From contig NC_019682.1 of the NCBI RefSeq assembly GCF_000316575.1, positions 3,408,001 to 3,472,000 of the forward strand: a stretch of DNA of 64,000 bases, given 5' to 3'. This DNA comes from Calothrix sp. PCC 7507 (lineage in GTDB: Bacteria > Cyanobacteriota > Cyanobacteriia > Cyanobacteriales > Nostocaceae). Positions 1 to 3,983 of this stretch are shown here, one piece after another; position 1 is the first letter of the stretch; the number at the start of each line of letters is the position of its first letter. The notes under the pieces were generated by a model that was not told the origin of the DNA, ran no database searches, and was given only the letters and a program-made list of their open reading frames with translations. A program made the translations under genes and the position numbers.

Positions 1-1272
1 GTATTCATCGGGGATACCAGTTTGATGTAAGCCGATCACCCCTTGTTTTTCTACACCAGTGCGGAGCAAGAGGATAGAACTGGTGCGGTTATTGGTGATG
101 GGGATCTTGTTGGAAGGAAAGATGGGTACGCCGCGCCAAGCTGTAACCTGAGCGCCGTTCACATCTACGCTGGTGGGATAGAGTCCGAGGCGGTTGGCTT
201 CCCGACCGAAAGCAGCGATCGTGCGGGGGTGAGCCAGGAAGAATGCTGGCTCTTTCCATACAGTCGCCAACAACTCGTCTAAGTCATCGGGGGTGGGTGC
301 GCCGGTACTGCTGTAGATCCGCTGGCTGAGGTCGGCGTTGTGCAGCAACCCGAATTCGCGGTTGTTGAGCAACTCGTATTCTTGACGTTCCCGCAATGCC
401 TCAATAGTTAGCCGCAGTTGTTCTTCTGTCTGGTTGTACGGTTCGTTGTACAGATCGGCTACGCGGGTACTTATTTGCAACACCGTTTGGGCGATGCTCA
501 ACTCATATTCCCGGGGCGCAAGGTCGTAATCAGCGAAGGTTCCGGCTAATGCAGTCTCTTGGGGATGATTAGTCGCCACTTCAATGGCGGCTTCACCTTG
601 GGCATTCTGTGGCTGGTTCAGGCTGGCGCGGAACTGCTCAACATGAGTTTGCAAGGCCTCGGACTGACCGATTAGCCCCTCAAACACCTGTTGGGGTAGG
701 GACAAAACTATGGTTCTGGTAATTGCCTTGAGGGTGTACTGCCAGGTGTCCTCGGATTGCACCACAGTTTCATCACCGAAATGGTCGCCGTCGGCTAGCA
801 CGTCCAACACGACCTGCTCGTCATACTTGCCAACACCAATCTTGTTCACCTTGCCACGAGCAATTAGAATTATGCGATCAGCCGGCTGACCAATCTCAAC
901 GATCACGTCGTCTGGGGCGAACTCCTGCTGCACAAACTGGTTAGCCAACGCGGTCAACACCTGGGTGTCGTTAAACCCTCGCAGCAAGGGCAACTCAGTA
1001 AGTTCCTGGGGAATCACCTGCACCGTTGCTCCGGTGTTGGTGAAACTAACCCGCCCATCACCCACAGAATAACTCAACCGACGGTTGACGCGATATACGC
1101 CACCCTTGGTCTGCACCCACGGCAACAGCTTCAACAACCACCGGGATGTAATTTCCTGGGTCTGTGGTGCAGATTTGGTCGTTGTCGCCAAATTACGCGC
1201 CGCTGCTGTACTCAAACTTAACTGGGGCTGCTGACCCTCAACATTCACACTGGGATCATTAGAATAAGTCAC
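1..1272 (-). CDS. Family 2B encapsulin shell protein with cyclic-nucleotide-binding domain (partial, C-terminus beyond window edge)
   Basis: An open frame runs from 1272 off the left edge, 424 residues visible. Residues ~95-205 form a Crp/Fnr-type cyclic-nucleotide-binding domain (LPLLRGF at the start, GDHFGDE near 162-168). The rest matches the cyclic-nucleotide-binding proteins encoded beside geosmin and 2-methylisoborneol synthases, now recognised as family 2B encapsulins: HK97-fold shell subunits with an inserted nucleotide-binding domain. It probably builds a protein compartment for the synthase encoded upstream on the same strand. No in-frame ATG exists after the in-frame TAA near 1411; a GTG at 1272 has GGAG 9 nt upstream and is the best start. 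The family assignment is from recognition, not a search. Confidence 0.85.
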
Positions 1273-1479
1273 AACTTCATTCTCCAAACTGTAGTTAGTA
1301 AAAAAACCGATCTCACCGAAGAGGTAGAGGGGAAGGGAGCTTTCTAGCGGGGGGGGAGCAAGCCCAACCCTCTGCGACAAGCATTGCGGAACATGGGTAT
1401 GAACGCGAATTTATGTTGAGCGAAGTCGAAACACAGCGTCTCCAAGAGTTGCCCCGTGTCAGTCTCTCCCCCTACCCCC

Positions 1480-1686
1480 CAGGGCTGTTTCGTTCCCTCT
1501 CAAACAGGATTTGTCAAGATGGTTAGCGATAAAAATCATAAGTATGGGTAACGATGAAACAGAATATTCAGCACATAAATAACAGTACGATTGTCTATTT
1601 TCTCGATACCCAGGTAGCAAAATCATCAATTTTATTTTGCTAGAACCCTTGATTTTTCAAGCTTCTTAGGGAATGAAACAGCCCTG
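1480..1686. repeat. Miniature inverted-repeat element A with 10-bp target duplication
   Basis: The 207-bp element begins CAGGGCTGTTTCGTTCCCT and ends AGGGAATGAAACAGCCCTG, a near-perfect terminal inverted repeat. It is flanked on both sides by CCCTACCCCC (1470-1479 and 1687-1696), a perfect 10-bp direct repeat that reads as a target-site duplication. It has no coding capacity, so it would have needed a transposase in trans. It sits between geosmin synthase and the encapsulin gene. A relative lies at 4089-4296. Confidence 0.85.
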
Positions 1687-1727
1687 CCCTACCCCCTGCC
1701 TCTTTTGACAGGAATACTAATTCGTAA

Positions 1728-3983
1728 TTAAAGAGCAGAACCCCTTGCACCGAGCAATGAGCCGATACGTGCAGCGGATGTGCCCAGTCCTGTTGGACCA
1801 TTGAGCAGCCGCCGCCCGGCTGCGGAATTATTACGCAATTCAAATTCCTTATAGCGGTCTACCGTTATATGCCACCTGAGTACACCGGACATCCACTGTT
1901 CTAGTTTCTCAACGTATCCCAGCAATTTTTCGCGGGTACTTTCGTCTAGATCGAAATCGTCGAAAAGGGCAGGCAATTCAGTGGCGACGATATGTTGAAA
2001 CTGTTGTGCCCTTGCAGTCATCAGGTTGTTAACAATCTCGACAGCCTGGGGTATATTGCAGTTGAGGAAATTCTGCACAACCAGCACGACGTTATGGATT
2101 TCGCCCTCAAATTCGATTTCTTTCTGGTAGGAGAAGACATCGTTAGTGAAACAGGCAAAGTCGGCGGCGGAATTCTCCAGCGATCGCATTGGCCTACTGT
2201 AGTAGATATCCATCGGAATCTCGCCGCCCTGGGATAGTCGAGATAGGCTCATCGTCAAATCTGAGCCAAAGGTCTGCCGACGCATCTCCACATAATCGAT
2301 TGGATCAGGAATCCGATTTTGGATCTGGTTGGCGAGTTCCCACACCCAACTGTCAGTCATATCCTGAATCGCACGGCGGAACTCAGTCCGTGCTGTCAGG
2401 GACATGGGGCCTGCTGTGCGAGACCAAATATCTGCCAAGCCGCGTTCCACCGGATTGGTTGGTATGGCGGGGGGTGTGGAGTCATCAAGAGGCATGAACG
2501 CCGAGAGTCGGGCGTTGAACACTTTCGCCCCAGCCATGTTGCGGCTATTCCCGTAGAGTGCTGGGAAGTAATCGTCAGCATAGGTTCCCCAGACAAGCCA
2601 GCAAGCGGTGAGATTTAGCTCATCAGCAGACGCATTCGGATGGATCAACGCACCGCATAGGGCAACATCGGCAACATCAAACTTGTGGTCATTCCAGATG
2701 AAGGCATCAGGAATGCCAGGTATTGATTCCAGCATCCCCACCTGACGCGCCCATTCTTTGGAATGCTTCCTTGCAGCATCCAGATGGGGATTCAACGTGG
2801 TAGAGAAGGGCATATAAAACTTCGGCAGTTTTACTGGTCCCACAGCCTGATATGGAACGTGAGTAAAGCTCTTGAACCTTCCCAAACCCAAGGCGGCGGA
2901 TAACGATTCAATCCGCGCCGCCGATGTGCCTAACCCTTTGGGACCGCCCAGAATCGTCGGTGTCGAAGAATTGTCCCCTCCCTTGTTCATGTAGCGGCTC
3001 GATCGCATATGCCACTCATGACCGCCCGACTGCCAATCCTGAAGTCCTTTGATGTAAAGGAGAACGTTTACCCGTTCTACTGGATCTAGTCCGTACTCCT
3101 CAAACAGGGAGGGCAACTCGGTGACAGCAGTGTTATCAAACTGGTATAAGCGCGAACTCAACAGTTCGTTGGTGAGGTTAGCTGCCTCCTGGGTACTCAC
3201 ATTCAAGAAGCGTTCCAAGACCAACACACAGTTGGCATTTTCGCCTTCATCCTCTACTTCTCTCTGGTAGGAAAACAGGTCGTTACGCAAATGCACCCCA
3301 TCGGCAAACGTGTCTTTGAGTACACGCATTGGCCGAGTTGCGGCAATTTCCGCCGGCACCTCTACAAACACGGCGTGTTCCACCAGATCCGCCGACCACG
3401 GTGCGCCGCCAACCTTGCGCCGCATCTCAATGTATTCGATGGGGTTGGCAATCCGATTCTGGTTGATATTGGCGAGTTCCCACAAAGACTCTTCTAGGAG
3501 GTTCTTGGTACTCTCGAAGAACCGACGCCGCCATTCCACAGACTTAGTAAAGGCGGTGCGAGACCACAGGTCGGCCAAGCCACGCTCTACTGGGTTGGTG
3601 GGAACGGGAGGGGTTTCGGTGGGGTAAATCGGCATGAAGGCTGGTAGTCTGCCGAGATACTCCTTTGCCCCAGCCATGTCTTGAGTACGTTTATAGATTT
3701 CCAGGAAGTGATCGTCAAAGAAGAACACCCAGACATACCAGTCGGTTACTAGGTCAAGCTCCGCTCCCGGCGCATCTGGATGGGTATAGGAGCAAAGCAA
3801 GGCGTAGTCGTGGGCATCAAATGTGCGTTCGTCCCAAATAGGCTCGTCTTGCGCTTCCTCTTCTGATCCAAGTATCCCCATCTCGTAAGCCCACGCCTTG
3901 GAATGCGATCGCGCTGCTTCCAGATTTGGGTTTAGTCGCGCCGGCCAAGGCGTGTAAAATTCTGGCAGTTCAAAGGGTTGCAT
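1728..3983 (-). CDS. geoA: Geosmin synthase (bifunctional germacradienol/geosmin terpene cyclase)
   Basis: This 751-residue protein has two tandem class I terpene-cyclase domains and converts farnesyl diphosphate to germacradienol (N-domain) and then to geosmin (C-domain). The N-domain carries the Mg2+-binding DDHFLE (90-95) and NDLFSYQRE (234-242); the C-domain carries DDYFP (470-474) and NDVFSYQKE (614-622). The domains are recognisably duplicated: [16 protein letters not shown] near residue 17 corresponds to [16 protein letters not shown] near 397. The length is typical of the family. The start ATG begins [10 protein letters not shown], as in known geosmin synthases. The encapsulin gene lies downstream on the same strand, 455 bp away, with element A in the gap. 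The enzyme should be catalytically intact. Confidence 0.97.

Follow-up and report, generated by a model that had tools for sequence, protein, structure and literature searches.

Geosmin-synthase-like cyclases have been proposed as cargo of family 2B encapsulins in passages of Andreas and Giessen 2021 (PMC8346489), with an 11-residue targeting sequence placed between the domains and at the C-terminus of the cyclase. In parts of PMC7251104, geoA followed by two cnb genes is described for cyanobacteria and deltaproteobacteria, and PMC8049743 places 2b shells beside terpenoid genes, in passages that make no mention of geosmin. Described here is a geosmin synthase gene with two family 2B shell genes, Enc1 and Enc2, situated at the left end of a 64,000-nt stretch of Calothrix sp. 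PCC 7507 (NC_019682.1, positions 3,408,001 to 3,472,000), hereafter the window. The reading that we consider probable is that of a geosmin nanocompartment, i.e., a two-component shell of the virus-derived 2B type that would carry the tagged geosmin synthase inside. The gene order geo-Enc1-Enc2 and the idea of the synthase as cargo are both already published, and the locus adds one more case; the co-occurrence counts, the tag controls, a chimeric synthase and a relic locus are additions of the present analysis.

There is no essential difference between the locus and the 2B systems presented in those passages of PMC8346489, where a two-domain cyclase with an interdomain and a C-terminal tag is likewise part of a 2B operon and cyanobacteria are among the hosts. 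The order is also that of geoA-cnb-cnb of Microcoleus asticus, where the synthase has 758 amino acids (aa) and the cnb products 471 and 469 aa. In the relevant parts of PMC7251104, however, the cnb genes are called Crp/Fnr-type transcription regulators, not shells, and the window has an added element between the genes. Encapsulins are likewise consistently present in geosmin clusters of myxobacteria, where excerpts of PMC12224551 report them in all the clusters compared. The two-component shell of Streptomyces lydicus (9bje, 9bix), as presented in sections of PMC12407261, has the same tandem of Enc1 and Enc2 and the same A-domain contrast, VWK versus RRRK, but its putative cargo is a xylulose kinase, whereas here it is geosmin synthase. 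Enc1 is closest to these solved shells (9bje, 657.6 bits, over an alignment of 452 residues; 9bix, 637.4 bits), followed by a Streptomyces griseus shell, 9bhu, of the same family 2B (608.7 bits). We take 9bhu to be the 2-methylisoborneol synthase shell of that species. The S. griseus system reportedly has a single shell protein, and its one-domain synthase is said to be loaded via an N-terminal disordered region.

Gene order and the geosmin synthase

All three genes are on one strand in the order geo-Enc1-Enc2, in a source genome of 7.02 Mb that is a single contig. The genes, followed by the metal motifs of the synthase, are:

1728..3983, minus strand: geosmin synthase gene, 751 aa, uninterrupted frame, with two terpene synthase domains of class I; a putative cargo of the encapsulin
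1..1272, continuing left past the window edge, minus strand: Enc1, family 2B encapsulin shell gene, GTG start, 469 aa, VWKEP motif
L003:7003-8409, i.e., window -1997 to -591, wholly outside the window, minus strand: Enc2, second family 2B shell gene, 468 aa, RRRKS motif
3699..3716, minus strand: N-terminal domain, metal motif 1, DDHFLE (residues 90-95), with D90-D91 unchanged in all 31 aligned synthases
3258..3284, minus strand: N-terminal domain, metal motif 2, NDLFSYQRE (residues 234-242); N234, D235, S238 and E242 invariant
2562..2576, minus strand: C-terminal domain, metal motif 1, DDYFP (residues 470-474); D470, D471 and P474 invariant
2118..2144, minus strand: C-terminal domain, metal motif 2, NDVFSYQKE (residues 614-622); N614, D615, S618 and E622 invariant

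Gene identity, order and intact frames are established. A preliminary description, made from the window alone, had taken the synthase to be complete with both metal sites in both domains, and the frame, the profile match and the invariant residues confirm this. The shell gene with a nucleotide-binding fold that it placed downstream on the same strand is confirmed as well, and belongs to family 2B. A second cnb gene was looked for beyond the left edge and is present as Enc2; the Enc1 frame, which might have broken just outside the window, is intact in the genome.

The synthase scores 1257.2 bits (cut-off 1200) against NCBIfam NF041168, which bears the name 'family 2 encapsulin nanocompartment cargo protein terpene cyclase'. 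Its N-terminal half matches the solved geosmin synthase domain 5dw7 with 492.5 bits, and PF19086 matches in two stretches. The AlphaFold2 model has a mean predicted local distance difference test (pLDDT) of 84.4. Each of the two domains has the aspartate-rich and the NSE metal motif of germacradienol/geosmin synthases, and the metal-site residues D90-D91, N234-D235-S238-E242, D470-D471 and N614-D615-S618-E622 are invariant among the 31 aligned synthases. Judged by its sequence, 1728-3983 is thus a complete germacradienol/geosmin synthase, with formation of geosmin from farnesyl diphosphate as its predicted activity.

The window genome has a second terpene synthase (L027, G000:C1:5371883-5372824), which is untagged and far from the shell genes. 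At a Microcoleus locus (L044) two geosmin-synthase-like genes are found in tandem, with 62% and 84% identity, and in the copy adjoining the shells the tags are weakened to 8/11 and 3/11.

The shell genes

Against NF041163, which has a cut-off of 400, the two shells score 751.8 and 774.8 bits, and in both PF19307, the SrpI-like capsid domain, and PF00027 are above cut-off. Both thus have the make-up of family 2B shells, an HK97-type capsid domain of the SrpI kind with an internal domain of cyclic-nucleotide-binding fold. Enc1 and Enc2 are 74% identical, and their tandem of an Enc1-type (VWKEP) and an Enc2-type (RRRKS) gene is that of a two-component 2B system. It should be noted that the listed TTG start of Enc1 at 1380 is probably too early; GTG at 1272 is favoured because the ATG of Enc2 aligns there and a GGAG is found upstream.

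Older annotations would make the cnb genes Crp/Fnr-type transcription regulators of the geosmin gene, in keeping with the name used in PMC7251104. Against this, Pfam recognizes a nucleotide-binding fold and an SrpI-like capsid domain and nothing that would bind DNA, and the nearest solved structures are capsid shells aligned over the 452 residues given above. A regulator role is therefore the least probable of the readings considered, and the genes are treated here as shell genes.

Among loci with two shells, 34 of 37 pair a VW-type (Enc1) with an RR-type (Enc2) gene, counting L056 with an altered motif; L068, L070 and L074 are untyped. All 8 single-shell geosmin loci have the RR type, i.e., Enc2 (L077 being partial). 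This agrees with sections of PMC12407261 in which Sl-Enc2 of S. lydicus self-assembles, Sl-Enc1 does not, and the two co-assemble. In the shell tree, the gene in the Enc1 position of two Nostoc loci (L048, L056) clusters with the Enc2 of the same locus; it keeps an Enc1-type motif (VGRE in L056), a pattern as after gene conversion.

The Rfam family RF02735 (Sernc350, a Saccharopolyspora antisense RNA) matches opposite Enc1 (window 728-1233, plus strand, 137.9 bits) and opposite Enc2 (L003:7865-8367, plus strand, 71.9 bits), with a cut-off of 50. An antisense RNA at the shell genes is not claimed, as the match probably mirrors conservation of the shell coding sequence.

Co-occurrence and linkage of synthase and shell genes

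Co-occurrence was counted in 832 genomes from three groups, the Cyanobacteriota, the actinobacterial class of Streptomyces sp. RPT161 (L075) and the phylum of Myxococcus xanthus AM003 (L064). The E-value limits for 2B matches were 1e-60 in the Cyanobacteriota and the actinobacterial class, 1e-30 in the myxobacterial phylum and 1e-150 in the family of L075. Matches over only about the last 240 profile positions, taken to be family 2A or shells without the nucleotide domain, were not counted as full-length 2B and were set aside (7 in the Cyanobacteriota, 11 in the actinobacterial class including G436, 7 in the myxobacterial phylum). Of 22 Cyanobacteriota genomes with any synthase match, 10, G125 among them, were excluded as having other terpene synthases.

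Each of the 128 genomes with a synthase has a family 2 shell gene, whole or in pieces, and 125 of these have full-length 2B, as against 8 of the 704 genomes without a synthase. In each of the 12 synthase genomes among the 386 Cyanobacteriota, two full-length 2B shells adjoin the synthase (chimeric in one of them), while full-length 2B is found in 2/374 of the others. The corresponding figures for the myxobacterial phylum (150 genomes) are 49/49 and 0/101, and for the actinobacterial class (296 genomes) 64/67 and 6/229, with 30 of the 64 shells within 6 kb of the synthase. The three actinobacterial exceptions are G516 and G708, which have shell pieces, and G436, which has an adjoining shell lacking the nucleotide domain. 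The loci of the pieces in G516 and G708 are without one flank entirely and stop where the match stops, as would be seen at the end of a contig. The pairing of geosmin synthase with a family 2B encapsulin, around which the preliminary description was built, is thus borne out by established co-occurrence, far above chance in three groups.

Within the family of L075 a 2B shell is found in 245/249 genomes, and a synthase in all 24 shell-bearing genomes that were checked. Of the four genomes without a 2B match at the family limit, three are without a synthase; the fourth, G785, has a synthase together with shell pieces whose loci stop where the match does.

Figures for named loci refer to the best 80 of 587 synthase loci. 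A shell gene is near the synthase in 48 of the 80, with two shells in 37, one in 8, and a contig that ends inside the first shell in 3. In the remaining 32 no nearby shell was seen. Each of these 32 genomes has a 2B match at some other place; the match exceeds the cut-off in 30 and consists of pieces in 2, and in both of the latter at least one piece begins at base 2 of its contig. One of the unlinked loci, L060, is the second synthase of a genome whose other copy, L059, is linked. Contig ends lie less than 4 kb from the synthase on at least one side in 5/32 of the loci called unlinked (L100, L102, L105, L108, L113), so that a neighbouring shell may lie beyond the contig in those five.

Putative cargo tags

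Two sequences of the synthase correspond to the 11-residue tag:

2913..2945, minus strand: putative cargo tag 1 (residues 347-357), in the interdomain linker, 10/11 to the tag consensus
1767..1799, minus strand: putative cargo tag 2 (residues 729-739), in the C-terminal tail, 11/11 to the tag consensus

Important is the position of the tags in the AlphaFold2 model. A pLDDT below 50 over at least 3 residues is found only at 41-45, 335-372 and 721-751, and tags 1 and 2 lie inside the two long stretches, 335-372 and 721-751, which are probably disordered. On this model the synthase has what is expected of encapsulin cargo, a conserved putative targeting sequence within a region of predicted disorder.

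The distribution of the tags is established from 81 synthases, i.e., those of the 80 named loci and one tandem copy, 49 shell-linked and 32 unlinked. At least one tag copy with at least 8/11 residues is found in 78 of the 81; in shuffled regions the 99th percentile is 6. GLGT[SA] is present in all 12 shell-linked synthases of the Cyanobacteriota and absent from 13/13 other terpene synthases of that group, the second one of the window genome included; the scores of these 13 are 3-4, not above those of shuffles. In the set used for this control, L030, L031 and L033 repeat counted genes, L026 repeats L015, and L032 gave no match. The linker tag has a mean of 9.6/11 in the 49 linked synthases versus 6.75/11 in the 32 unlinked ones, and the C-terminal tag 8.7 versus 9.4.

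A broader reading is that bacterial geosmin synthases at large are obligate clients of encapsulins, the unlinked synthases of the Streptomyces type being packaged in trans, via the C-terminal tag, into a 2B shell encoded elsewhere. This reading is suggested by the 2B matches elsewhere in all 32 unlinked-synthase genomes, by a C-terminal tag of at least 8/11 in 30 of their 32 synthases, and by the four L075-family members without a 2B match at 1e-150, three of which have no synthase and the fourth 2B pieces. We put it forward tentatively, as somewhat short of an even chance.

A chimeric synthase and a relic locus

In one cyanobacterial genome (G039; L015/L026, G039:C93 ~24592-26103) a chimeric synthase gene adjoins two 2B shells. 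The first ~109 synthase residues continue in frame into a foreign terpene synthase domain whose G+C content is 63-69%. This domain is nearest to isoafricanol and pentalenene synthases, with scores under their cut-offs. The chimera ends in three GLGTSA tags, the last two in sequence of 47-50% G+C. If the assembly is right, a misassembly being possible, this is a natural cargo swap. Tags next to a changed catalytic domain would be expected if the tag were a modular address.

Genome G125 (L032 1501-1711, near G125:C1 3693809) has no intact synthase or shell gene and has relics of both. The synthase relic consists of 27 residues, 74% identical to synthase residues 275-301, and the shell relic, 68 bp downstream of it, of 23 residues with 70% identity to the shell C-terminus. 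Decay of the two genes appears to have been joint.

Probable packaging of the synthase

Packaging of the synthase in the shell, regarded in the preliminary description as the likely purpose of the pairing, appears likely from linkage, co-occurrence and tag sequences. From these we infer assembly and co-assembly of the shell, its loading and its function, as follows. Enc2 would build a small icosahedral shell with Enc1 mixed in. The tags in the linker and the C-terminal tail would bind the inner shell face and so carry the two-domain synthase inside. Farnesyl diphosphate would enter via shell pores, and geosmin would be formed within. The shell would probably hold the volatile product or control its release, and would not be needed for catalysis. 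Catalysis without a shell is expected because 2-methylisoborneol was made in E. coli from two biosynthetic genes without cnb genes, according to passages of PMC10580876. A role in retention or controlled release is suggested by the same passages, in which E. coli released 2-methylisoborneol and the native cyanobacterium retained it; other causes of that difference are possible.

Several points weigh against a loaded geosmin nanocompartment. No demonstration of geosmin synthase inside a shell was found among the papers listed in searches of open-licence PubMed Central. The co-occurrence counts are uncorrected for shared ancestry, and within the L075 family they carry little weight because 2B is near universal there. 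The 13 untagged control synthases are distant and short (frames of 184-368 aa, 20-27% identity), so they differ from the tagged set by more than shell linkage alone. The C-terminal tag is no better kept, and perhaps less well kept, in linked synthases (at least 8/11 in 39/49) than in unlinked ones (30/32), and one linked synthase, L066, has weak tags with a best score of 6. Loss of the linker tag was considered as proof of cargo function and rejected, because on the tree most of it falls in a single Streptomyces clade and the comparison, with just 4 independent pairs, is not significant. The AlphaFold2 model of Enc1, built from 26 sequences, is poor (mean pLDDT 56.8); its top seven fold matches are family 2 shells, 9bhu first, and the sequence match to solved shells carries the shell argument instead. 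Co-transcription of the synthase and Enc1 is uncertain because an element widens the gap between them to 455 bp, and because reverse transcription PCR of a cyanobacterial 2-methylisoborneol cluster, in a section of PMC10580876, has the cnb genes transcribed independently.

The shell may also be real and genetically tied to the synthase without holding it, the synthase being docked outside, or the shell having another cargo while the tags serve otherwise. The related 2-methylisoborneol pathway, which runs in E. coli without cnb genes, would agree with this, as would the C-terminal tag kept in nearly all of the unlinked synthases, and packaging of geosmin synthase is so far a prediction in the literature found. 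On the other side stand the shell gene or pieces in every one of the 128 synthase genomes, the confinement of the tag to shell-linked synthases among those scored in the Cyanobacteriota, and the G039 chimera, which has three tags despite its changed catalytic part. A synthase outside the shell is thus considered unlikely, and the nanocompartment with the synthase inside is preferred.

The nucleotide-binding-fold domain

The internal domain of Enc1 is located as follows:

664..927, minus strand: cyclic-nucleotide-binding-fold insertion of Enc1 (PF00027, 54.3 bits), with Trp177 at 742-744, the position of E. coli CRP Arg82

Arg82 and Glu72 of CRP are taken here to be phosphate-binding residues. 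The Arg82 position is Trp in all 53 domains aligned with E. coli CRP, a count that covers only domains whose ends were located by a simple pattern, and Trp177 is kept in 83/83 full-length shells among 88 shell frames. At the position of Glu72, Asp is found in 51 of these 83 and Glu in 6. Both window shells have Trp for Arg82 and Asp for Glu72 and thus lack the site of a CRP-type cyclic-nucleotide receptor. The alteration of the site is established; as a speculation, the invariant Trp in place of a phosphate-binding Arg may fit a hydrophobic or aromatic ligand.

A cyclic-nucleotide-responsive compartment had been raised in the preliminary description. In such a compartment cyclic AMP or cyclic GMP, bound to external domains, would alter cargo activity or shell pores. 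This reading would be consistent with PF00027 above cut-off in both shells and with the fold matches of Enc1, which include cyclic AMP-bound CRP-family proteins. It is opposed by the altered site and by a passage of PMC12407261, according to which the 2B domain binds no cyclic nucleotides and may have another ligand. A further argument against it comes from an actinomycete genome (G436, L175, G436:C12), where a geosmin-synthase-like gene of 50% identity adjoins a 2B-like shell gene without the nucleotide domain. Action of these domains through cyclic nucleotides is thus not supported by their sequences, and a responsive compartment is considered very improbable; the favoured nanocompartment does without it.

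Intergenic elements

Two elements of about 207 bp, MITE-like (miniature inverted-repeat transposable element), flank the synthase gene:

1480..1686, no strand assigned: element of 207 bp between the synthase and Enc1; its inverted ends measure 17-19 bp, and CCCTACCCCC may be a target duplication of 10 bp
4089..4296, no strand assigned: second, diverged element sharing those ends, upstream of the synthase

The synthase-Enc1 gap is 455 bp here, whereas its median over 22 named cyanobacterial loci is 102.5 (52-199). Enc1 and Enc2 are separated by 453 bp, compared with a median of 197.5. Counts of promoters and terminators near the genes were no different from those in shuffles.

Implications

Geosmin, a compound of earthy odour, spoils drinking water, and the adjacent cnb genes have been described as regulators of the Crp/Fnr type. 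If the shell reading is true, work that treats them as regulators has a wrong premise. The tag controls together with the chimera provide a model, open to test, of how two-domain cyclases are loaded as cargo. For Streptomyces, in which an unlinked synthase is common, the co-occurrence makes one ask whether the synthase is packaged in trans. If the shell encloses the synthase, the release of odour in blooms could hinge on how shells assemble and break.

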